Source: a bacterium (GTDB lineage Bacteria; Cyanobacteriota; Vampirovibrionia; Gastranaerophilales; Gastranaerophilaceae). From it: a DNA stretch of 64,000 bases. The DNA lies in the NCBI GenBank assembly GCA_017626055.1, contig JAGAJM010000004.1, positions 62,001 through 126,000 on the forward strand, given 5' to 3'. Shown in pieces: positions 2,731-63,445 of this stretch. The notes below the pieces were generated by a model. The model saw only the letters and a list, made by a program, of their open reading frames with translations, was not told the DNA's origin and made no database searches. The first letter of the stretch is position 1. Every line of letters begins with the position of its first letter. Both the position numbers and the translations under genes were made by a program.

Positions 2731-2813
2731 GTGTCTAAGCAGCTATGCGGCTAAGTAATTGGAGTAATTAAGCAAGTGAAAAGCCCAACTTCTTAGCTGC
2801 ATAGCTTCTTCAC
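2731..2813. repeat. Long imperfect inverted repeat between the Hsp20-like gene and ruvC
   Basis: The arms 2731-2756 and 2789-2813 are complementary over about 25 bases with a few mismatches (cores AGCTATGCGGCTAAG and CTTAGCTGCATAGCT). The loop is about 32 bases. There is no clean U-run, so it is not a standard terminator. It may be a transcript-stabilising structure or a remnant of a palindromic repeat. Confidence 0.6.
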
Positions 2814-2828
2814 TTCCTTATTTATTAA

Positions 2829-2837
2829 TGTTAATAT
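2829..2837 (+). promoter_or_regulatory. Extended -10 promoter of ruvC (leaderless)
   Basis: TGT (2829-2831) followed by TAATAT (2832-2837) puts the expected transcription start on the ruvC ATG at 2844. No Shine-Dalgarno sequence precedes that ATG. Confidence 0.5.
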
Positions 2838-2843
2838 ATAGGT

Positions 2844-3323
2844 ATGAAGATTTTAGGTATAGACCCAGGAATGGCAATAGTTGGTTATAGTATTTTAGAG
2901 TTTGATGGAAAAAACATCGAGCTTTTACATTCAGGTTCTATTCAAACAAAAAAAGGTGAAAGAGAGTCCGCTAGGCTTTTAGAAATTTTTGAAGATATGA
3001 ATTGTATTGTCGAAAAATATCAACCTGATGTTTGTGCGATAGAAAAATTATTTTTCTTTAGAAATACAACAACAGTTATGCCAGTTGCTCATGCGAGAGG
3101 TGTGATTATGACTGTGTTGGAAAAATTTGGTGTACCGATTTATGAATATACCCCAATTCAAGTAAAACAAACATTAACAGGTTATGGCAGGGCTGATAAA
3201 AAAGAAGTTGAACAGATGGTAAAAGTAAGTTTAGGTGTTGATAAATTACCAAAACTTGATGATACTGTGGATTCAATTGCTATTGCGATTACATATACAA
3301 GGAGTGCAGAAGGGTTGCAATAG
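2844..3323 (+). CDS. ruvC: Holliday junction resolvase RuvC
   Basis: RuvC cleaves Holliday junctions symmetrically together with RuvAB during recombinational repair. The acidic catalytic residues of the RNase H fold are visible: Asp7 (GIDPG), Glu67 (AIEKLFF) and Asp140/Asp143 (DDTVDSIAIA). The QVKQTLTGYGRADK segment is the usual conserved central region. The 159-residue length is normal for the family. ruvA and ruvB are not in the window, so the gene is unlinked to them here. An extended -10 sits just before the ATG and no ribosome site is seen, suggesting leaderless translation. Confidence 0.95.
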   Translation: MKILGIDPGMAIVGYSILEFDGKNIELLHSGSIQTKKGERESARLLEIFEDMNCIVEKYQPDVCAIEKLFFFRNTTTVMPVAHARGVIMTVLEKFGVPIYEYTPIQVKQTLTGYGRADKKEVEQMVKVSLGVDKLPKLDDTVDSIAIAITYTRSAEGLQ

Positions 3324-3420
3324 TTGAATTTTTAAAATATATTCAAATTGTAAAAGGAATTGTTAAAAGAGTTGATATAAAAGACGGGGTAGAGTCATAT
3401 ATCACTAGAGGCGAGTAAAA

Positions 3421-4137
3421 ATGTTTAATATTTTTCAAACAAGGGCGAAACGAGGTTTCACATTAGCAGAGGTTTTAATTACTCTTGGTATTATTGGTAT
3501 TGTTGCAGCGATGACAATTCCTGGATTAATTACTAAATACCAAAAACATGTTGCGGCTACCCAGTTAAAAAAACAGTATTCTCAATTGAATCAAGTGTTA
3601 TTACGTATATCTGATGATCCAGGGTTAGATGTATTGGATGCAAAGGCTACTGTTTTTGTTCCTCAATATATTCAGCCGCATTATGCAGGTTCAACCTATT
3701 TTAAACCGAATTCAGATCACAAAAAAACTATGTGTTGGAACCCTGAAAATTATTATTTAGGCGCAAAGACTAAAGATTCTCAGTATGCTTCTATTGATAA
3801 AAAAGGTTTGAGTTCTGGGTATATTCAAACACCATTTTTGCCTAAACAAACTGCATCAATTATGTTACAAGACGGTTCTTGTATTGGGTTTAATGATAAA
3901 ATTATTAATAATACTGATCGAGCAACAATATTTGTTGATATCAATGGTAGTCATGTTCCACCTAATAGGTTAGGTAGAGATTTGTTCTGGTTTTATGTTG
4001 ACCAAGTAAAATATACGGTTGTGCCAACTGATGCTGGTGGTAAATATGATGTTTTTGACTTTCCAGGTTTAAAAATTGGTGTTGAAAGAATAAAGAATGC
4101 AGGTTGGACAATACCTAAAGATTATCCTTGGAAATAA
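3421..4137 (+). CDS. Type IV pilin-like / pseudopilin with prepilin N-methylation signal
   Basis: The protein starts with a short basic leader followed by a class III signal, KRGFTLAEVLITLGIIGIV: G before F at the cleavage site, Glu at +5, then a long hydrophobic helix. This is the hallmark of type IV pilins and type II secretion pseudopilins processed by prepilin peptidase. The C-terminal 190 residues are a globular domain with a few cysteines (MCWNPENYY, GSCIGF) and are not recognised. No prepilin peptidase or pilus assembly ATPase is adjacent. The ribosome site is a weak GAGGCGAG. This leader style recurs in gut relatives of Cyanobacteria (recalled, not searched). Confidence 0.85.
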   Translation: MFNIFQTRAKRGFTLAEVLITLGIIGIVAAMTIPGLITKYQKHVAATQLKKQYSQLNQVLLRISDDPGLDVLDAKATVFVPQYIQPHYAGSTYFKPNSDHKKTMCWNPENYYLGAKTKDSQYASIDKKGLSSGYIQTPFLPKQTASIMLQDGSCIGFNDKIINNTDRATIFVDINGSHVPPNRLGRDLFWFYVDQVKYTVVPTDAGGKYDVFDFPGLKIGVERIKNAGWTIPKDYPWK

Positions 4138-4138
4138 T

Positions 4139-4167
4139 TTGAAATTTCTTTGTGTGAATGTTAAAAT
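4139..4167 (+). promoter_or_regulatory. Promoter of the membrane protein at 4179
   Basis: TTGAAA (4139-4144), a 17-base spacer and TAAAAT (4162-4167), with TGT immediately before the -10, form a good promoter. It lies downstream of the ATG at 4158, so translation most likely begins at the ATG at 4179, about five bases after the expected transcription start. Confidence 0.7.
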
Positions 4168-4178
4168 GCTCAAAAGAT

Positions 4179-4670
4179 ATGGATAAATTTGTTGTAAAAA
4201 ATATAATAATTTTTAGTTTGATGTTGGGCTTAATTTTAGGATTATTAGCTCCAATTCCATATGTTGGAACATTTATCTTATTTGTGGCGTTATTATTATC
4301 TGCGCCGATAATTATGCTTTATTTAATTATGGATAATAGACTTGAATTAACAACAACAAAAGATAGTATTATAACTGGTGCAATAGTTGGATTTGTTGTT
4401 AATATTTCATTCTCAATTGCATATGCTTCAGTGATGGCAATATTAGCTAAATTTATAAATTACAGTTCAAATTTTATTTTAACTACAATGATTGTAAATT
4501 CTCCGATTTGGTTATTGGGAGTGTTTATAATTTTCATTGGAGTTCTTTGTGCAACAACAAATTCATTTAGTGGATTTGTTACGTACTATATTATAAACTT
4601 TATTCGTGATATGTATGAAAAACAACTTCCTAAAAATAAGGAAGATGATGATTTTACACTACAAAAATAA
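4179..4670 (+). CDS. Unrecognised multi-pass membrane protein
   Basis: No family is recognised. The sequence has four to five hydrophobic segments (starting IIIFSLMLGLILGLLA, then FILFVALLLSAPIIMLYLI, GAIVGFVVNISFSIAYASVMA, LLGVFIIFIGVLCATT) and a short acidic C-terminal tail (NKEDDDF). The start at 4179 is preferred over 4158 because the promoter -10 overlaps the earlier ATG. It sits between the pseudopilin and mtnA, and the mtnA ribosome site follows 20 bases after its stop, so the two may be co-transcribed. No functional clue is visible. Confidence 0.7.
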   Translation: MDKFVVKNIIIFSLMLGLILGLLAPIPYVGTFILFVALLLSAPIIMLYLIMDNRLELTTTKDSIITGAIVGFVVNISFSIAYASVMAILAKFINYSSNFILTTMIVNSPIWLLGVFIIFIGVLCATTNSFSGFVTYYIINFIRDMYEKQLPKNKEDDDFTLQK

Positions 4671-4689
4671 ATAAAAAAGGATAATAAAA

Positions 4690-5748
4690 ATGGCAGAATT
4701 TACATCAAAAATCAGAACAATTCAGTGGGTAGATAATGTTTCAAGAATGGTTGATCAAACAAAATTCCCAGAAAAATTTGAATATATCGATATTAAAACT
4801 GGGGATGAAATGTTTGATGCAATTAGAACAATGATTGTTCGTGGTGCTCCAGCAATTGGTATTGGTGGTGCTCATGGTGTTGTTTTATACGCATTAGAGG
4901 GTGCTGAAAAATTTGATTCAAGAGAAGAATTTGTAAATTGGTTAATTGAAAAAGCTGAATATATGAAAACTTCTCGCCCGACTGCAGTTAATTTGATGTG
5001 GGCTGTTGAGAAACAAATTGAAGTTATCAGAAATTCAAAATCTGATATTAAAGGTTTGATTGAAGAATTAAAAGTTAATGGTATCAAGTTAGAAAACGAA
5101 GATATCGAAATCAATAAAAAAATTGGTGATTATGGTGCAGAAGTTGTTCCAAAAGGTGCAACAATTTTAACTCATTGTAATGCTGGGGCTTTGGCTACTG
5201 TTGGTTATGGTACTGCGCTAGGTGTTGTTCGTTCAGCTTTTGCGAAAGATAATACAGTTCAAGTTTTTGCTGATGAAACAAGACCACGACAACAAGGTGC
5301 AAGAATTACTACCCTTGAACTTACAATGGATGGAATTCCAACAACATTGATTACTGATGGTATGTGTTCCTATTTTATGAAAAAAGGTATGATTGATATG
5401 GTATGTGTTGGAGCAGATAGAATTGCTGCAAATGGTGATGCTGCAAACAAAATCGGAACATATACTGTTGCGATTGCTGCAAAATATCATAATATTCCGT
5501 TCTATGTTGCGGCTCCACTTTCTACGATCGATACAAGTATTAAATCTGGGGATGAAATTGTAATTGAAGAAAGATCTCGTGAAGAAGTTACACATATTAA
5601 CGGCAAAACAATTTGTGCAGAAGGTGTAAATATAATTAATCCAGGATTTGATGTTACTCCACACGAATTGATTGCGGGTATAATTACAGAGAAAGGTATT
5701 TTAAGACCAGATTATAACAAATCAATTGCAGAAGCGTTTAAAAAATAA
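4690..5748 (+). CDS. mtnA: S-methyl-5-thioribose-1-phosphate isomerase
   Basis: This enzyme converts methylthioribose 1-phosphate to methylthioribulose 1-phosphate in methionine salvage. The conserved RGAPAIG (residues 51-57), the catalytic-Cys segment THCNAGALAT, ETRPRQQGARIT and the GADRIAANGD...NKIGTY block, which carries the catalytic Asp, are all present. Length (352) matches the family. The close relatives are eIF2B subunits and ribose-1,5-bisphosphate isomerases, but the NAGALAT and ETRPRQQG segments fit MtnA. No other salvage genes (mtnK, mtnB) lie nearby. Confidence 0.93.
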   Translation: MAEFTSKIRTIQWVDNVSRMVDQTKFPEKFEYIDIKTGDEMFDAIRTMIVRGAPAIGIGGAHGVVLYALEGAEKFDSREEFVNWLIEKAEYMKTSRPTAVNLMWAVEKQIEVIRNSKSDIKGLIEELKVNGIKLENEDIEINKKIGDYGAEVVPKGATILTHCNAGALATVGYGTALGVVRSAFAKDNTVQVFADETRPRQQGARITTLELTMDGIPTTLITDGMCSYFMKKGMIDMVCVGADRIAANGDAANKIGTYTVAIAAKYHNIPFYVAAPLSTIDTSIKSGDEIVIEERSREEVTHINGKTICAEGVNIINPGFDVTPHELIAGIITEKGILRPDYNKSIAEAFKK

Positions 5749-5765
5749 TTTTGTTTGTGTATAAT
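5737..5765 (+). promoter_or_regulatory. Promoter of the small exported protein
   Basis: TTTAAA (5737-5742), 17 bases, then a perfect TATAAT (5760-5765). The predicted transcript starts near 5772 and includes the strong AGGAGG site before the ATG at 5806. The -35 overlaps the mtnA 3' end. Confidence 0.65.
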
Positions 5766-5805
5766 AGAAATATATTTTTTAGGGCATGAAATTCAGGAGG
5801 GAAGT

Positions 5806-6093
5806 ATGAAAAAATTATTTGCATCATTGTTAGTTTTATCAATGTTATCAATGGGTGTTCCAGCATTTGCGTCAGGTACACATGGTGTTGATGGTGATGT
5901 ATCAGGTAGATCAGTTGGGGCTGCTTGCTTATCATTATTAGTATGGCCAGGTATTGGACAAGCTGTTAACAAAAACACTAAAGAAAAAAATGTAACTCAC
6001 GCAGTTTTAGGTTTGACTGGTGTATTTAGACTTTGGTCTTTCTATGATGCATTAGTTGATAGAAAAGGCGGAGTTTGGAAAAACAGAATTTAG
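5806..6093 (+). CDS. Small exported or membrane protein with signal peptide, 95 aa
   Basis: The ATG at 5806 follows a near-perfect AGGAGG and opens a textbook signal peptide (MKKLFASLLVLSM to VPAFA). The mature part has a hydrophobic turn (LSLLVWPGIGQAV) and a second hydrophobic stretch (HAVLGLTGVFRLWSFYDAL), ending in a basic tail. The earlier in-frame start at 5755 is rejected because it precedes the -10. The family is not recognised. It is terminated by the first copy of a duplicated hairpin at 6114-6155. Confidence 0.75.
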   Translation: MKKLFASLLVLSMLSMGVPAFASGTHGVDGDVSGRSVGAACLSLLVWPGIGQAVNKNTKEKNVTHAVLGLTGVFRLWSFYDALVDRKGGVWKNRI

Positions 6094-6113
6094 TTCTTGG
6101 CTAAATTTGAAAG

Positions 6114-6155
6114 TTTTATAAATAGAGTGGGCATTTTGTTCACTCTATTTTATTT
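6114..6155 (+). repeat. Direct repeat copy 1 containing a terminator hairpin
   Basis: These 42 bases recur exactly at 6740-6781. Inside is a stem AATAGAGTG/CACTCTATT followed by TTTATTT, a Rho-independent terminator for the gene ending at 6093. The stop codon of the minus-strand gene at 6150 lies inside the repeat. Confidence 0.92.
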
Positions 6156-6368
6156 AATAATTTCCACTAATTCTCTTAACGTTTTTGTTATGATTTCTGT
6201 TTTTCGTATAATCTTTTGTAGTTCTTGTTTTTTGTAATTTGATATTTTCATTGATTTATTAAAAATTGGGGTTGCACAGAATTCGATGATGCTATCTCCT
6301 TTGTATATGAGAGAAGTTACATTCTCTTTATAGTATTCCATTTGTTCTTTTGCAATTCTTAAAAACAT
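6150..6368 (-). CDS. Small unrecognised protein, 72 aa, divergent from an XRE regulator
   Basis: A good ribosome site (GGAGG, seven bases upstream) supports this short gene. The protein is rich in Lys, Ile and Glu with a predicted helical C-terminal half (NYKKQELQKIIRKTEIITKTLRELVEIIK region) and contains no cysteine motif or hydrophobic segment. It is transcribed away from the XRE gene, from a shared intergenic region of about 80 bases. A regulated partner of that regulator is possible, but no known toxin, antitoxin or immunity family is recognised. Confidence 0.6.
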   Translation of the reverse strand: MFLRIAKEQMEYYKENVTSLIYKGDSIIEFCATPIFNKSMKISNYKKQELQKIIRKTEIITKTLRELVEIIK

Positions 6369-6447
6369 TTTACCTCCAATTAAAATGCACTATTAAGGTT
6401 CTATGTGTAGGACACCCATTTTGGATTTTATCATTAGAATTCTATAT

Positions 6448-6723
6448 ATGCAACCAAAATTTTCTAAAAAAGAACAACTTATATTATCAGCATTAGGTAA
6501 TGTTGTTATTAACAAGCGAAAAGAATTAGAGAAATCTCAAAGGATGTTTGCTTTCGAGAATGATTTTCAAAAGTCTATGATTAGCCGTTTTGAACATGGT
6601 GCAAATGAACCAAAATTGTTTTCATTGTGGAGATTAGCAAATGCTTGTGATATGAAATTATCAGAATTCATTAAATTAATAGAAGATGATATTGGTGAAG
6701 ATATAGATTTAATTGATAAGTAA
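6448..6723 (+). CDS. XRE-family helix-turn-helix regulator
   Basis: The central 55 residues read as a Cro/CI-type helix-turn-helix (LGNVVINKRKELEKSQRMF, then MISRFEHGANEPKLFSLWRLANACDM), followed by a short acidic tail. The likely start is the ATG at 6448. An in-frame ATG at 6403 would add 15 hydrophobic residues, which is atypical for the family. The gene and its divergent neighbour are bracketed by exact 42-bp repeats, so the pair may have been inserted or duplicated as a unit. Its target is probably the shared intergenic region, as is common for divergent XRE genes. Confidence 0.8.
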   Translation: MQPKFSKKEQLILSALGNVVINKRKELEKSQRMFAFENDFQKSMISRFEHGANEPKLFSLWRLANACDMKLSEFIKLIEDDIGEDIDLIDK

Positions 6724-6739
6724 AATTTTAAAGTATAGT

Positions 6740-6781
6740 TTTTATAAATAGAGTGGGCATTTTGTTCACTCTATTTTATTT
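6740..6781 (+). repeat. Direct repeat copy 2 containing a terminator hairpin
   Basis: Identical over 42 bases to 6114-6155 and placed 16 bases after the XRE stop codon, where it should act as that gene's terminator. Confidence 0.92.
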
Positions 6782-6798
6782 GTATTTTCCCCCCTTTG

Positions 6799-6807
6799 TG
6801 TTATAGT
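6799..6807 (+). promoter_or_regulatory. Extended -10 promoter of leuS
   Basis: TGT (6799-6801) plus TATAGT (6802-6807) lies about 31 bases before the leuS ATG. This supports the ATG at 6838 rather than the in-frame TTG at 6796, which is upstream of the -10. Confidence 0.6.
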
Positions 6808-6837
6808 AAATTTGAGGATAAATGGAGTAAAAATAAG

Positions 6838-9336
6838 ATGAAAGAAAGTTATTTTCCACAAGAAATAGAAAAAAAATGGCAAGCAGTTTGGGAAGAAACT
6901 AAAGCATTCAAAACTTTAGATGAATCTGACAAACCTAAATATTATGCACTTTCTATGTTCCCATATCCATCAGGAAAACTTCACATGGGACACGTTAGAA
7001 ACTATACAATTACAGACGTAATTGCAAGATTTAAAAAGGCAAATGGATTTAATGTTTTACATCCAATCGGATGGGATAGTTTTGGTTTACCTGCAGAAAA
7101 CGCTGCAATGAAACACAATGCTGATCCTGAAACTTGGACAGATGAAAACATTGCATATATGACAAAACAATTAAAAATGTTGGGTCTTTCTTATGATTGG
7201 GACAGAGAAGTTACAACTTGCAAACCTGATTATTACAAATGGACTCAATGGTTGTTCTTACAACTTTATAAAAAAGGCTTAGTTTATAAAAAAGAAGCTG
7301 CCGTAAACTGGTGTAATGAATGTGGCACAGTTCTTGCAAATGAACAAGTTATCGATGGCAAATGCTGGAGATGTGATAATGTTGTTGAGAAAAAATACTT
7401 ATCTCAATGGTTTATCAAAATTACAGAATATGCTGATGTATTACTTGAAGATTTGGATAAACTTCTAGGTTGGGGTGATAACGTTAAAACAATGCAAGCT
7501 AACTGGATTGGAAAATCAAAAGGTGCAATTTTCAAATTCCCTGTAATTGATGCTCCAAGTGGTGAAGAAATGTATGTTCCAGTTTATACAACAAGACCAG
7601 ATACAGTATTTGGAATTACTTATCTTGTTGTTGCACCTGAATACAAAGATATTGAAAAACTTACAACTGCTGAAAATTCTCAAGCCGTTGAAGAATATAG
7701 AGCAAATGCTCGTAAAATGTCTGAAATTGAAAGACTTTCAACTGATAGAGTTAAAACAGGTGTTCCTCTAGGAACTCACTGTCGCAACCCATTTAATGGT
7801 GAAATTTTCCCATTATGGACTGCAGATTATGCTTTAGTTGAATATGGTACTGGTGCAGTTATGGCAGTTCCAACTCACGATACACGTGACTTTGATTTCG
7901 CTAAAAAGTACGAATTGCCAATGAAAGTTGTTATCGAAAATCCTGAAAATCCATCAGATTGTAAAGATGCAGCTTACACTGACCCTGGTGTGTTGGTAAA
8001 TTCTGGTGAATTTAACGGAATGAAAAATGAACAAGCAAAACAAGCAATTACAAAATGGGCTGTTGATAAAGGTTTTGGTGAATTCAAGACTCAATACAGA
8101 CTTCGTGATTGGTTAATTTCTCGTCAAAGATATTGGGGAGCTCCAATTCCTGTTGTTTATTGCGAAAAATGCGGTATTCAACCAATTCCAGAAGATCAAC
8201 TTCCAGTATTGTTACCAAAAGATGTTGACTTTAAAGTTGTTGGTAAATCACCAATTACAACTTCTGAAACATTTAAGCATACAACTTGTCCAGTTTGTGG
8301 TGGACAAGCTACTCGTGAAACAGATACAATGGATACATTTGTTTGCTCAAGCTGGTACTATTTAAGATATGCTGATGCAAATAATTCAGACAAATGCTTC
8401 GATAGAGATACAGTAAACCACTGGTTACCTGTAGATCAGTATGTTGGCGGTATTGAACACGCAATTTTACACTTGTTGTACTCAAGATTCTTTACAAAAG
8501 CATTGAGAGATTGCGGTTTGTTAGACTTTGATGAACCATTCAAAAACCTACTTACTCAAGGTATGGTATTAAAAGATGGTGCTAAAATGTCAAAATCTAA
8601 AGGTAATACTGTTGATCCTGATGAAATTTTTGAAAATTATGGTGCAGATACTGCAAGATTATTTATTCTTTCAGATTCACCTCCAGCAAGAGATTTTGAC
8701 TGGTCAGATGCAGGGGTTGAAGGTTGCTACAAATTCTTAAACAGAGTTTGGAGATTAATTTCAACAAATGCTGATAATATCACTTTAGATTATAAATTGA
8801 ACTTCCCATTAGAAAAATCAAATGATGATTTAGTGAGAACTGTTCATATTGCAATCAAAGGTATTACAAATGACATTTCAAATGACTTCCAATTCAATAC
8901 AGTAATTTCAAAATACAGAGAATTGACTAACGCAATCTATGATTGGCAAGGGGGTAAATGTAAAGATGGCTCCGAACTTAGCGATGAAGACAAACAAGTT
9001 CTAAGTTTTGCAGTTGTATCATTGATGAAATTGATGTCACCTGTTGCAGTTCACTTAACTGAAGAAGCTTGGAGTGAATTAGGTGGTGTTGGTTCAATTC
9101 ATGAACAAGATTGGTGTGCTTGGGATGAAAATTTGGCTAAATCAAGTTCAATTACTTTAGTTGTTCAAATCAATGGTAAAGTTAAAGATAAAATTGAAGT
9201 TGATGAAGGCTTGGATCAAGAACAAATGAAACAAGTTGCTCTTGATAGTCCAAAAATCAAAGCACAAATCGAAGGAAAAACAGTTGTTAAAACAATTGTA
9301 GTTCCAGGAAAGTTGGTAAACATAGTAGTTAAGTAA
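6838..9336 (+). CDS. leuS: Leucyl-tRNA synthetase
   Basis: This class I aminoacyl-tRNA synthetase charges tRNA-Leu. The HIGH motif is HMGH (49-52) and the KMSKS motif is at 583-587. A zinc-type insertion (CNEC...CWRC) and the CP1 editing domain with its threonine-rich TTRPDTVFG segment follow between them, then the anticodon-binding domain and a C-terminal QINGKVKDKIEV domain. The 832-residue length fits the bacterial enzyme. The start is the ATG with GGAG upstream, downstream of the -10. The gene appears monocistronic. Confidence 0.97.
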   Translation: MKESYFPQEIEKKWQAVWEETKAFKTLDESDKPKYYALSMFPYPSGKLHMGHVRNYTITDVIARFKKANGFNVLHPIGWDSFGLPAENAAMKHNADPETWTDENIAYMTKQLKMLGLSYDWDREVTTCKPDYYKWTQWLFLQLYKKGLVYKKEAAVNWCNECGTVLANEQVIDGKCWRCDNVVEKKYLSQWFIKITEYADVLLEDLDKLLGWGDNVKTMQANWIGKSKGAIFKFPVIDAPSGEEMYVPVYTTRPDTVFGITYLVVAPEYKDIEKLTTAENSQAVEEYRANARKMSEIERLSTDRVKTGVPLGTHCRNPFNGEIFPLWTADYALVEYGTGAVMAVPTHDTRDFDFAKKYELPMKVVIENPENPSDCKDAAYTDPGVLVNSGEFNGMKNEQAKQAITKWAVDKGFGEFKTQYRLRDWLISRQRYWGAPIPVVYCEKCGIQPIPEDQLPVLLPKDVDFKVVGKSPITTSETFKHTTCPVCGGQATRETDTMDTFVCSSWYYLRYADANNSDKCFDRDTVNHWLPVDQYVGGIEHAILHLLYSRFFTKALRDCGLLDFDEPFKNLLTQGMVLKDGAKMSKSKGNTVDPDEIFENYGADTARLFILSDSPPARDFDWSDAGVEGCYKFLNRVWRLISTNADNITLDYKLNFPLEKSNDDLVRTVHIAIKGITNDISNDFQFNTVISKYRELTNAIYDWQGGKCKDGSELSDEDKQVLSFAVVSLMKLMSPVAVHLTEEAWSELGGVGSIHEQDWCAWDENLAKSSSITLVVQINGKVKDKIEVDEGLDQEQMKQVALDSPKIKAQIEGKTVVKTIVVPGKLVNIVVK

Positions 9337-58631: not shown

Positions 58632-58657
58632 AACCTCCGACTCTTTGGTCGGAGGTT
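58632..58657 (-). terminator. Terminator after the Gly-zipper protein gene
   Basis: AACCTCCGAC/GTCGGAGGTT (58632-58641, 58648-58657) is a 10-bp perfect stem with a six-base loop, followed on the minus strand by TCTTTTGG. Confidence 0.85.
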
Positions 58658-58752: not shown

Positions 58753-59979
58753 TTAACCCCAGATTAAGCTTTTTACAAAGCCTACTCCTGCGCCGATAAC
58801 AGCACCGACTGCAGTACCTACGCCTGGAACTACTGAGCCAATAGCTGCACCGATTGCGGCACCTGATGCTGTTGATACAACTTTATCAGTATGGTCTTTT
58901 GATTCTTTTTTGTTTCCGCCATCTTTTGTTGTTGCTGTATCATATGGTTGACCTTCAGCTTCAGCTATGATTTTTACGATGTTGTCATAGTTTTTGTATA
59001 CATCGTTATTTACATATACCCAGCTATTTAGTTCTCTATCGATCGCAGCGAAGTCTTCTTTACATTTATGAAGTACGCCAGCTTCTCTAGCTCTAATCAT
59101 TAAGGCGTTCTTAATATGTTTACCAAGTTCTAGTTTTTGTGATCTAGTTGCATCGTACATAAATGCGTGCATAAATGTTTCACCGTGTTCTGCTGAGTGC
59201 ATTTCATTATATGCTAACATTACGTCAATAACATTTTCAGGTGTGATGTTTTTACAAACTTCTTCGAATGCGGCATCGTCTGTACCTGGGCCTTCTACTG
59301 CATTGTAGAATTGCTCAGCCATAAGTAAGCCCTCATCTGAGAATGTTGCATAGTCTGCAAGACCATCGCCATCTTCATCATTTTCAACTACTGTATTTCC
59401 GTTTTCGTCAACTGTTTTTCCGCCTGTTGTTTTTGGAGCTTCACCAGGTGCACCTACTTTTGAGATATCAGCGATGATTGCTCGGATATTTTTCTCGATA
59501 GCCGCAGCTTTTTTGTATAAATCAGATGGTTTTAAGTTTGTTTCTGCTGATAGATCATTTAGTTTTGTTTCTTCTTCAGTTAGTCTATCAATAAGTTTAT
59601 TAATTACTTGTTGTTGTTGTTTAGTATAGCCGTCATCTAATAACATTGAATTTAGGCGTTGTTTAGCCATTGCAATTGTTTGCAAGTTTGTATTGATTGT
59701 TTGGGCAGCAAGGTTACCAGATACTCTTTCACCTGTTTGTTGCATACCTGTCATAAATGGGTTATTTGTGCTTGGAGTGTAACCCCAGTTGTTAAGAATT
59801 GGTTGATTGTAAGCACCATTTAGTACTGCTAATCCTTGTGGATTTAGAGCACAACCGATTGGTGCAGTCGATTGTGGATCTATTGTGAAAATTTGAGTGT
59901 CGCCACCGAAATTTGTAACGCCCATTGGTAAGTATGGATAAAATGGTACGTTTGCTTGTGAAATGTGATCAATTGTCAT
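58753..59979 (-). CDS. Lineage-specific surface-type protein with annexin-like and glycine-zipper segments, 408 aa
   Basis: Residues 1-66 form a conserved cap (VPFYPYLPMG, FGGDTQIFTIDPQS, APIGCALN) shared with the next upstream gene. A helical region (about 80-175) precedes DEDGDGLADY (201-210), a calcium-type D-x-D-x-D-G loop. Next is an annexin-like stretch, GPGTDDAAFEEVCKNI (230-245), and LAYNEMHSAEHGETF. The end (about 365-403) is a glycine zipper, ASGAAIGAAIGSVVPG...VGAVIGAGVG, likely to insert in a membrane. There is no signal peptide. GGGGA ribosome site. Whether it is a membrane or secreted factor is unknown. Confidence 0.7.
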   Translation of the reverse strand: MTIDHISQANVPFYPYLPMGVTNFGGDTQIFTIDPQSTAPIGCALNPQGLAVLNGAYNQPILNNWGYTPSTNNPFMTGMQQTGERVSGNLAAQTINTNLQTIAMAKQRLNSMLLDDGYTKQQQQVINKLIDRLTEEETKLNDLSAETNLKPSDLYKKAAAIEKNIRAIIADISKVGAPGEAPKTTGGKTVDENGNTVVENDEDGDGLADYATFSDEGLLMAEQFYNAVEGPGTDDAAFEEVCKNITPENVIDVMLAYNEMHSAEHGETFMHAFMYDATRSQKLELGKHIKNALMIRAREAGVLHKCKEDFAAIDRELNSWVYVNNDVYKNYDNIVKIIAEAEGQPYDTATTKDGGNKKESKDHTDKVVSTASGAAIGAAIGSVVPGVGTAVGAVIGAGVGFVKSLIWG

Positions 59980-60290: not shown

Positions 60291-60473
60291 AATTCTTTTC
60301 CCCGTTTTGAATTTTTATTCCCCGTACTTATATAAAAAATTTTCGCTTTGGAAAATTGCATGTCCAACCAGATTTAGCATGGTTTTTCGGCTTTTGGGAT
60401 GGTTGAAACTCAATTAAAATCTATGTTTTACGCTATGTAACATTTCTTAACAATTAGGATGTTTTATAGTTTA

Positions 60474-60482
60474 TGCTATGAT
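60474..60482 (+). promoter_or_regulatory. Extended -10 promoter of the HTH/zinc-ribbon gene (leaderless)
   Basis: TGC (60474-60476) and TATGAT (60477-60482) predict a transcription start exactly at the ATG at 60489. Confidence 0.55.
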
Positions 60483-60488
60483 ATTTTT

Positions 60489-60893
60489 ATGAAAACATTG
60501 GCAAGATTTATACAATTAAAAAGGGAAGAATTGGGCTTAACCCAGAAGGGGCTTGCAATTGCGGCAAATGTTCCATTATCTATTGTGGAAGAAGTTGAGG
60601 CTGGAAAAGAATTGTTTTTGGCTGTTACGGTAAGGCAAGCCTTAGCAAAAGTTTTAAAATGTGAGCCTGATGAGATAAAAGTTTTAGAAAAAGATATAGT
60701 GAACGATATTGTGTCGCCAGAAATTATTGAGAGTTTGAAAAAACTTATCTTAAATGGTGCTGGCGGTTTAAAATGTCCAAAATGTGGAGCTTTATTAGAT
60801 ACGAGAATTGCTAGGATGTATGATTTGGAAGATAATCTTATTTTGCATCCAAAGGCTCATTGTACAAAATGTCCGTTCCAAATTCTTTCATAA
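60489..60893 (+). CDS. Helix-turn-helix regulator with C-terminal zinc ribbon, 134 aa
   Basis: An XRE-type helix-turn-helix (LARFIQLKREELGLTQKGLAIAANVPLSIVEEVEAG pattern) is followed by a helical region and a zinc ribbon (CPKCGALLDTR...CTKCPF). The start at 60489 fits the -10; the longer frame is upstream of it. A REP-like element and tyrA follow. The target is unknown. Confidence 0.83.
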   Translation: MKTLARFIQLKREELGLTQKGLAIAANVPLSIVEEVEAGKELFLAVTVRQALAKVLKCEPDEIKVLEKDIVNDIVSPEIIESLKKLILNGAGGLKCPKCGALLDTRIARMYDLEDNLILHPKAHCTKCPFQILS

Positions 60894-61701: not shown

Positions 61702-62175
61702 TTATGGAGTTGGGGTAGCTGGAGCTTTTGTGAAGAAGTTCTTAACTGCGTCCCAAGCTTTGCCTGCGAATTTTTTAACTGCTTCGAAGCCATTTTTAAC
61801 ACCATCTGTTACAGTTTTTACTACACCAGAGTTTTTAACTGCTGTCCATTTACCTGAAATCCAATTTCCTACATTTCTTAAAGCTGGTAATACTTTATTC
61901 GCTACAAATGGAATTTTTGCGATTTTACCACGGAAGATAAATGCTAGAGCTGCTGCTGCAACTGTTGCACCTAATGCAATCAAACCGCCTTTACCTTTTT
62001 TCTCTTGTTTTTCTGGATCATAAATACCAGGTTTAATAGTTGTAAATTCACCAGTTTTTGGATCGATGAAAATTGCATCTTTATGAGGATTAATTTTTCT
62101 ATCACTTGTAAATGTTGCTGCTGGAGCATAAGCTGTTGAATAACCATAACCTGTTGGAGCTACAAATAATGTCAT
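61702..62175 (-). CDS. Lineage-specific membrane protein with RGKI motif, 157 aa
   Basis: A polar N-terminus ends in IDPKTGEFTTIKPGIYDP, then a hydrophobic helix GLIALGATVAAAALAFIF, then RGKIAKIPFVANKVLPAL and a lysine-rich amphipathic helical end (VKNGFEAVKKFAGKAWDAVKNFF). The order DP-K...YDP...TM...RGKI-x-x-IPF is the same as in the neighbour at 62383. AAAGGA before the ATG. No signal peptide. Function unknown. Confidence 0.7.
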   Translation of the reverse strand: MTLFVAPTGYGYSTAYAPAATFTSDRKINPHKDAIFIDPKTGEFTTIKPGIYDPEKQEKKGKGGLIALGATVAAAALAFIFRGKIAKIPFVANKVLPALRNVGNWISGKWTAVKNSGVVKTVTDGVKNGFEAVKKFAGKAWDAVKNFFTKAPATPTP

Positions 62176-62382: not shown

Positions 62383-63321
62383 TTATGCTGTTAAATTTAA
62401 TCTTGCTCTTTCCAATGCAGCTAGTGATGATTCATCTACATTATTTTGAATTTGTCTTGAAATAGCACTTGCTCGATTGGACTCAGCATTAATTCTTCGA
62501 ATTGCTGCAGCTTGTTCTGTTGTTGGTGCTTGGTATCGATGAGCTCGATTGTACGCTAATTGTTCTGCATCTGTAACAACATCATCAAGAGATCTTTGTA
62601 CCATTTGTCTGTTGTGACTATCTCGAACATGTTTAAGGTCAATACCTTTTAGTTCTTCTGGTGTTACTTTAGTTCGGACTGCAGTTGAACCTCCAGATTT
62701 AATAGTGTTAGTTGCTACTGTCGAAGTTGTATTCGTTGTTGGTGCTGGAAGTAACAATTGTGGTTTACCTCCATTTGGTGCTGGTAGCTGTAATACTGGC
62801 TTGCCTCCGTTTGGAGCTGGAAGTTGTAGTACAGGTTTACCTCCATTTGGTGCAGGGAGTTGCAATTGTGTTGGATTGTTAGGTCCAATTGGTACATTAG
62901 GTCCTATTGGTCCGTTAGGTCCAACTGGACCATTCGGTCCTGGTGTTTTTCCTTTCCCAAATAGTTTTTTGAACCAATCTACAATTTTTTGTCCAAAAGG
63001 TTTTATTTTATTTGTCCAAAATCCTTTTAACCAAGTTCCTGCATTTTTTATAAATGGTATATTCTTGATTTTACCTCTTGTTAAGAATAATAATGCTGCT
63101 GTGGCTACTGCGGTGCCTGCTGCAATAATGTTTCTTTTTGTATTATCTTTTTTTACTTTTCTATTTGGATCATAAAGACTAGGATCCCACCAAGCGATAT
63201 TTGCGCTTTTTGGATCTACGCAAAGATTACCATTTTTTGGTTTCGCTCTTTCTGCCTGTGTTGTTCCACTATTGGCTATATACTGAGAATAGCCGTAACT
63301 GCTTAAACTATCAACTGCCAT
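62383..63321 (-). CDS. RGKI-motif membrane protein with GPN and LPAPNGGKP repeats, 312 aa
   Basis: Shares with 61702 the N-terminal VDPKS...YDPN, a TM helix (IIAAGTAVATAALLFL), RGKIKNIPFIKNAG, and a basic amphipathic segment. It then has a collagen-like region (GPNGPVGPNGPIGPN) and 12-residue repeats (LQLPAPNGGKPV) encoded by 36-bp units at 62741-62860. The last 100 residues are helical and charged. The ATG at 63321 follows AAAGGG; the longer frame is not supported. Presumed surface-exposed or scaffold protein of unknown function. Confidence 0.7.
   Translation of the reverse strand: MAVDSLSSYGYSQYIANSGTTQAERAKPKNGNLCVDPKSANIAWWDPSLYDPNRKVKKDNTKRNIIAAGTAVATAALLFLTRGKIKNIPFIKNAGTWLKGFWTNKIKPFGQKIVDWFKKLFGKGKTPGPNGPVGPNGPIGPNVPIGPNNPTQLQLPAPNGGKPVLQLPAPNGGKPVLQLPAPNGGKPQLLLPAPTTNTTSTVATNTIKSGGSTAVRTKVTPEELKGIDLKHVRDSHNRQMVQRSLDDVVTDAEQLAYNRAHRYQAPTTEQAAAIRRINAESNRASAISRQIQNNVDESSLAALERARLNLTA
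62741..62860. repeat. 36-bp tandem repeats encoding 12-residue units
   Basis: Three nearly full units and a partial one begin at 62741, 62777, 62813 and 62849. They encode LPAPNGGKP-type units in the minus-strand gene. Differences are mostly at third positions. Confidence 0.88.
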
Positions 63322-63411
63322 AACAGTTTCCCTTTCTATCTTTCCCCTGTGTACTTTAATAAAGTATTTTTTTATTTCAAAATTGCTTAGATGTTGAAAT
63401 TTGAATAGAAA

Positions 63412-63445
63412 AAAAGGCTTGAAATTAAATAAAATCAAGCCTTTT
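63412..63445 (-). terminator. Terminator after the DAHP synthase gene
   Basis: AAAAGGCTTGA/TCAAGCCTTTT (63412-63422, 63435-63445) is an 11-bp perfect stem, followed on the minus strand by a T-run. Confidence 0.9.

Follow-up and report, generated by a model that had tools for sequence, protein, structure and literature searches.

Does a gene of a gut bacterium from the Gastranaerophilales encode an annexin-type protein, and might that protein attach to membranes in response to calcium? Annexin repeats, which bind membranes in a calcium-dependent manner, are most familiar from animals and plants, and an earlier note on this DNA had read a calcium-type loop, an annexin-like repeat and a C-terminal glycine zipper in one predicted protein, from which calcium-regulated membrane binding or insertion was proposed. 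Here, the window, i.e. the whole stretch of 64,000 nucleotides that was analysed, was taken from a genome assembly of 1.87 Mb in 28 contigs, and predicted structures, profile comparisons and searches of related genomes were used to analyse the gene, its homologues and its neighbourhood.

The open reading frame at 58753-59979, for which no strand had been given before, was found to lie on the minus strand; it is open from an ATG start codon and encodes 408 amino acids (Table 1). The full-length model of this protein, hereafter the window protein, reached a mean pLDDT of 74.4, with three long helices at residues 74-173, a confident part at residues 215-341 (10-residue blocks mostly at pLDDT 90 to 98) and values below 50 for residues 184-208 and 353-408. 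No genuine family assignment for the window protein emerged from NCBIfam, PHROGs or PADLOC, where the matches were weak or located on the zipper. By a hydropathy scan of the N-terminus, no signal peptide was evident. The best 12-residue mean was 2.62 in an OstA-like comparison protein versus at most 1.40 in 29 homologues; neither the window protein nor the proteins L003, L122 and L124-L127 described below have a hydrophobic N-terminal stretch comparable to that of the comparison protein.

Table 1. Features of the annexin-like gene and its surroundings (positions of the window; residues of the window protein unless stated otherwise).
Feature	Position	Strand	Basis or remark
Whole protein, 408 aa	58753..59979	-	Order of parts: N-terminal domain; coiled coil of three helices; acidic linker; annexin-like repeat followed by two extra helices; tail with glycine zipper
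N-terminal domain, residues 1-57, motif NFGGDxQ	59809..59979	-	Model and profile search
Three-helix antiparallel coiled coil, residues 74-173	59461..59760	-	Predicted structure
DEDGDGLADY, residues 201-210	59350..59379	-	Single D-x-D-x-D-G loop; surrounding linker mostly disordered
Annexin-like repeat, residues 214-300, helices A-E	59080..59340	-	Model, structure search, profile-profile comparison
GPGTDD, residues 230-235, A/B loop	59275..59292	-	Fits annexin type II calcium motif GxGTD
D276 codon, D/E turn	59152..59154	-	Aligned with D of GDFSG in canonical repeats
Two extra conserved helices, residues 303-341	58957..59073	-	Outside the standard annexin repeat
Glycine-zipper tail, residues 365-408	58756..58887	-	
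83-aa ORF just upstream, separate copy of the N-terminal domain with GYYC as last residues	60039..60290	-	
XRE-type helix-turn-helix gene, divergent	60489..60893	+	ORF listing begins at 60459; start is the second ATG by homologue comparison
Hairpin resembling a terminator, downstream of the annexin-like gene; stem of 10 pairs, loop of 6	58632..58657	-	

The N-terminal domain was detected only in the genus of the window, which corresponds to 4 of 78 genomes of the bacterial family and 1 of 41 genera in the sample searched. The small ORF upstream is 69% identical to residues 1-75 of the window protein and probably belongs to the same operon as the annexin-like gene. A small ORF of this type also precedes the main gene in some relatives. 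From the model, the coiled coil is a probable oligomerisation or spacer module.

The motif DEDGDGLADY stands at residues 201-210, as the earlier note stated, where it was likened to a thrombospondin-3/EF-type loop. Its pattern, D-x-D-x-D-G-x-x-[DE], is more than a chance match: it was present once among the 22,793 aa of the 107 window ORFs examined and not at all among the 119,268 aa of 726 ORFs from 28 related loci, and shuffling of the 39-residue linker yielded it in about 0.1% of the trials. The motif is present but is not supported as a general feature, since the D-x-D-x-D-G loop is peculiar to the window protein (1 of 29 homologues) and is modelled mostly at pLDDT below 50. An EF-hand or TSP3 family was not matched in the window protein by Pfam, and a polcalcin gave a weak phmmer match (E 0.018).

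A similar picture was obtained for the glycine zipper. The last 44 residues contain five GxxxG steps, so that the zipper itself stood, but as a family feature it did not: the window protein is alone in carrying it among 29 homologues, and it is modelled as disordered (mostly pLDDT below 50). Two other homologues (L011 and L020) end in unrelated hydrophobic tails. None of the Pfam glycine-zipper families (YMGG, Omp, OmpA) was matched over its curated cut-off, the best score being 22.8 bits for YMGG-like Gly-zipper (cut-off 28.9), and there is a weak resemblance to bacteriocin IIc. The tail looks borrowed, because similar segments with 57% and 50% identity sit inside other proteins of two relatives, and it could well be cytoplasmic because no signal peptide is evident. 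The D-loop, the annexin-like repeat and the zipper are therefore not supported as one conserved device.

Computed homology of the C-terminal domain to annexin repeats

Modelled alone, the C-terminal domain reached a pLDDT of 93.4 and a pTM of 0.89. In the model, annexin helices A to E are represented by the helices at residues 215-229, 235-243, 250-265, 269-276 and 279-300, with GPGTD (230-234) in the loop between the first two and D276 as the last residue of the fourth; the conserved and confidently modelled helices at 303-317 and 325-341 are additional to this set. In a Foldseek search with the domain model, 46 of the 50 PDB rows listed were titled annexin, one giardin and three PDZ constructs. 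The PDZ constructs in the structure lists we take to be annexin A2 fusions, as was stated in the search output for several chains. Annexins came first with probabilities up to 1.00, yet no E-value was at or below 0.001 (best 0.033 and 0.044). With VIA, 49 of the 50 rows listed for the domain model were annexin, giardin or PDZ/p53-type constructs, the sole row without any of these or a complex thereof being astrotactin-2. Z-scores reached 9.1 (for example, Z 8.8 with an rmsd of 1.5 over 75 residues), and residues 214-294 of the full model were placed on annexin repeats with Z up to 8.7 and an rmsd of 1.4 over 75 residues, where a Z below about 13 may reflect a common helical arrangement. A BFVD fold search gave weak, mixed matches only. 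The comparison of a predicted structure with annexin, which the earlier note had named as the check, thus gave a fold not unrelated to annexin.

As such Z-scores are ambiguous for helical proteins, evidence was sought in the sequence. The GPGTD motif was found at residues 230-234, where the earlier note had placed G-x-GTD. In a family alignment of 28 rows, G232 and T233 are each kept in 25 and D234 in 23; the GTD is missing in three rows, in which the remainder of the domain is kept, and judged from this alignment it is a hallmark of the window family. Position 276 is acidic in all 28 rows (25 D, 3 E), and hhalign places D276 on the D of GDFSG, i.e. in the D/E turn of canonical repeats. When the window family was compared by hhalign with canonical repeats of the same phylum, an E-value of 2.1e-11 was obtained (97%); with a second alignment it was 1.9e-10, versus a best value of 0.011 for 60 column shuffles and 0.015 for the reversed alignment. 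The target consisted of twelve canonical repeats chosen by hand from Pfam Annexin loci of the phylum, mostly from the window's bacterial family.

Against Pfam Annexin (PF00191), the window domain scored 14.1 bits, under the cut-off of 25; among 28 family members, 4 were matched with an E-value no higher than 1, the lowest being 0.005. A same-genus homologue (L068), which matches the window family profile over its length (E 4.5e-103), scored 25.7 bits in one search and 28.3 in another and thereby passed this cut-off. Annexin E-values from hmmsearch sum over weak repeats and were for that reason not used as proof; the best single annexin repeat in the printed alignments had an i-E of 0.43, and the matches included designed helical repeat proteins. 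By model and profile, the window protein contains one repeat versus four in tandem in a canonical annexin. Because of the single repeat and the score below the Pfam cut-off, it was classed as annexin-like and not as an annexin, while the annexin-like repeat that had been claimed was borne out by the model, the Foldseek and VIA lists and the profile-profile comparison. By computation, the C-terminal domain of the window protein is homologous to annexin repeats.

With eukaryotic annexins A2, A4, A5 and VI, the window domain shares the one-repeat fold (Z 8 to 9, rmsd 1.5 to 3.1 over 74 to 85 residues in the top VIA rows) and the type II site pattern. Unlike these, the window protein has one repeat instead of four, about four additional residues between helices C and D, and a coiled coil and tail. 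According to Kodavali et al. (2014, PMC3894181), bacterial annexins are rare and patchy, the 34 proteins coming from 17 species. No cyanobacterium is among these species in the available part of that text, which also covers the type II motif and the acidic D/E-turn residue. The window domain resembles these annexins, as presented there, in its five helices, the GxGTD between helices A and B and the single or fused occurrence. It differs from them in the two extra helices, in being preceded by a genus-specific N-terminal domain and a coiled coil, and in belonging to a lineage-wide set.

Annexin-type domains in the genus and the phylum

With the single protein as query no relatives were found, whereas an alignment as query retrieved 28 loci. 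A profile search of 59 relatives gave a match in 34 genomes, 33 of them among the 36 same-genus genomes (own genome included). From these searches, 29 homologues longer than 250 aa were extracted, one of which is cut by a contig end. The homologues share the NFGGDxQ N-terminal domain, the coiled coil, a low-complexity linker of varied composition and the GTD C-terminal domain.

Across the phylum, the window-type domain was detected at 1e-10 in 84 of 386 genomes, all within the window's bacterial family. With profile A1, 61 of 146 genomes were positive at 1e-10 (counted by eye from the table), and the more permissive E of 1e-5 (77 of 146 genomes) was abandoned, since at this level an OstA-like protein encoded in the window's own genome matches the profile in a smaller search. 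This protein (G000:C23:57857-58057) gave an A1 match at 2.8e-5, or 1.6e-6 in a smaller search, apparently by chance. Pfam Annexin itself was matched at 0.001 in 22 of 386 phylum genomes, of which 11 pass the cut-off and 19 belong to the window's bacterial family.

A canonical four-repeat annexin of 686 aa (L061; genome G311, 454-2511) is encoded by a different genus within the window's bacterial family. It scored 186.9 bits to Pfam Annexin and matched annexin VI by phmmer with an E-value of 7.2e-38. Its first repeat matches the domain of the window family (E 1.6e-11) with GTDE and GDFSG colinear; it differs in its four-repeat tetrad and in being without a window-type N-terminal domain. An EF-hand-like stretch was seen in its N-terminal half.

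Further relatives combine annexin-like domains with other modules. The cell-wall hydrolases L126 (747-3095) and L127 (854-3295) contain LysM, annexin-like, Amidase_3 and lysozyme domains and, like L122 (genome G182, 2771-8215), have no evident signal peptide. The latter, with 1815 aa, carries EF-hand, LysM and window-type annexin-like domains and a C-terminal Zeta_toxin, and L124 and L125 join EF-hand and LysM to an annexin-like domain; these architectures come from a chosen few proteins, and the EF-hand scores in L122, L124 and L125 lie under the cut-off. In the window's own genome, a cell-wall hydrolase of the Amidase_3 type (L003, 532-3210) with three weak annexin-like stretches is, from its sequence, a probable second annexin-like case. 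The LysM, Amidase_3, lysozyme and EF-hand domains in these relatives suggest an envelope setting.

Judged by titles and the beginnings of abstracts, no paper on a bacterial annexin gene in Gastranaerophilales or Melainabacteria was found, and the word annexin is absent from the available part of PMC4451040, which belongs to the literature on Gastranaerophilales secretion. The spread of annexin-type domains through this Gastranaerophilales family is thus apparently undescribed. Single-repeat and true four-repeat forms occur side by side in one family of gut relatives of cyanobacteria, and therefore the old question of whether annexins arose from a single-repeat ancestor can be addressed directly by structure and phylogeny. 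A far-reaching interpretation would be that this family harbours a wide prokaryotic annexin radiation, comprising the four-repeat annexin, single-repeat coiled-coil proteins, cell-wall amidases and a zeta-toxin protein, which may serve calcium-gated envelope targeting of proteins without signal peptides and could have been a source lineage for the origin of eukaryotic annexins; we offer it as a speculative and, on the whole, doubtful proposal.

Proposed function and competing explanations

Starting from the computed domain order, annexin-repeat homology and site conservation, we infer calcium and lipid binding, oligomerisation and anchoring. The reading that we favour as the simplest, and hold to be fairly probable, is that of a genus-specific single-repeat annexin-domain protein with calcium-dependent, reversible membrane attachment, multivalency by the coiled coil and a zipper anchor. 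The coiled coil (about residues 74-180) would carry the C-terminal annexin-like repeat, in which the GPGTD A/B loop and the carboxylate of D276 may together make up a type II calcium site. There, bound calcium would bridge to acidic phospholipid headgroups and thereby attach the protein reversibly to a membrane face. Multivalency, which in eukaryotic annexins comes from four repeats, would be provided by the coiled coil, and in this species a zipper tail, probably gained recently, would add a hydrophobic anchor. By analogy with known annexins, the window protein would thus bind membranes in a calcium-dependent manner, which points to a predicted calcium-dependent membrane attachment in a gut bacterium. 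The calcium supply is uncertain because no signal peptide is evident.

Alternatively, the annexin fold may have been kept with its calcium site unused, the domain being a protein-protein or structural module with the two extra helices as conserved surface. This would fit the near-invariant residues at fold or helix positions (F269, F273, A277, K282, G301) beside the site, the three alignment rows that retain the rest of the domain without GTD, and the conserved, confidently modelled helices at 303-341. We nevertheless consider it rather unlikely, as GT in 25 of 28 rows and an acidic residue 276 in all of them are hard to explain if calcium binding is dispensable. A convergent helical bundle with a chance GTD, sharing only a common helical arrangement with annexins, is very improbable and already disfavoured by the shuffle and reversal controls, the near-exclusive annexin lists and the score of L068 over the Pfam cut-off, even if the Foldseek E-values are not significant, middling Z-scores are common among helical proteins, designed helical repeats match the profile too and the OstA-like protein of the own genome matches A1 at 2.8e-5, which we read as false.

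It also appears improbable that the window protein is an effector or toxin-delivery component whose annexin-like domain and zipper act on another cell's membrane. Annexin domains do occur in injected toxins of other bacteria according to the available parts of PMC3482391 and PMC3894181, and the polymorphic toxins in the former (Zhang et al. 2012) are likewise bacterial multidomain proteins with one annexin domain. There, however, an enzymatic toxin domain follows the annexin domain, and the window protein is without one. The joining of LysM and Zeta_toxin to an annexin-like domain in L122 and the weak resemblance of the zipper to bacteriocin IIc would agree with such a role, while the zipper is restricted to 1 of 29 homologues and a contractile sheath (Phage_sheath_1), present in 7 of 40 related genomes, had no match in the own genome.

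Neighbourhood of the gene

About 200 bases upstream of the annexin-like gene, the helix-turn-helix gene is transcribed divergently from it, and in 22 of 28 related loci a homologue is located in the same way relative to the annexin-like gene or its small N-domain ORF. The encoded protein is a possible regulator. The intergenic region between the helix-turn-helix gene and the annexin-like operon (60291-60488) contains TTTATATAAGTAC and a GGGGA stretch near the start, conserved in 22 sequences. Sigma-70-like sites and the terminator-like site were no commoner than in shuffled sequences. A gene assigned from its sequence to ribosomal protein S15 follows the annexin-like gene, with the same orientation in 13 of the 28 loci and inverted in one. 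Also on the minus strand, the ORFs at 61702-62175 and 62383-63438 each encode a Gly/Tyr-rich N-terminus and a hydrophobic segment, and the protein from 62383-63438 contains tandem LQLPAPNGGKPV units.
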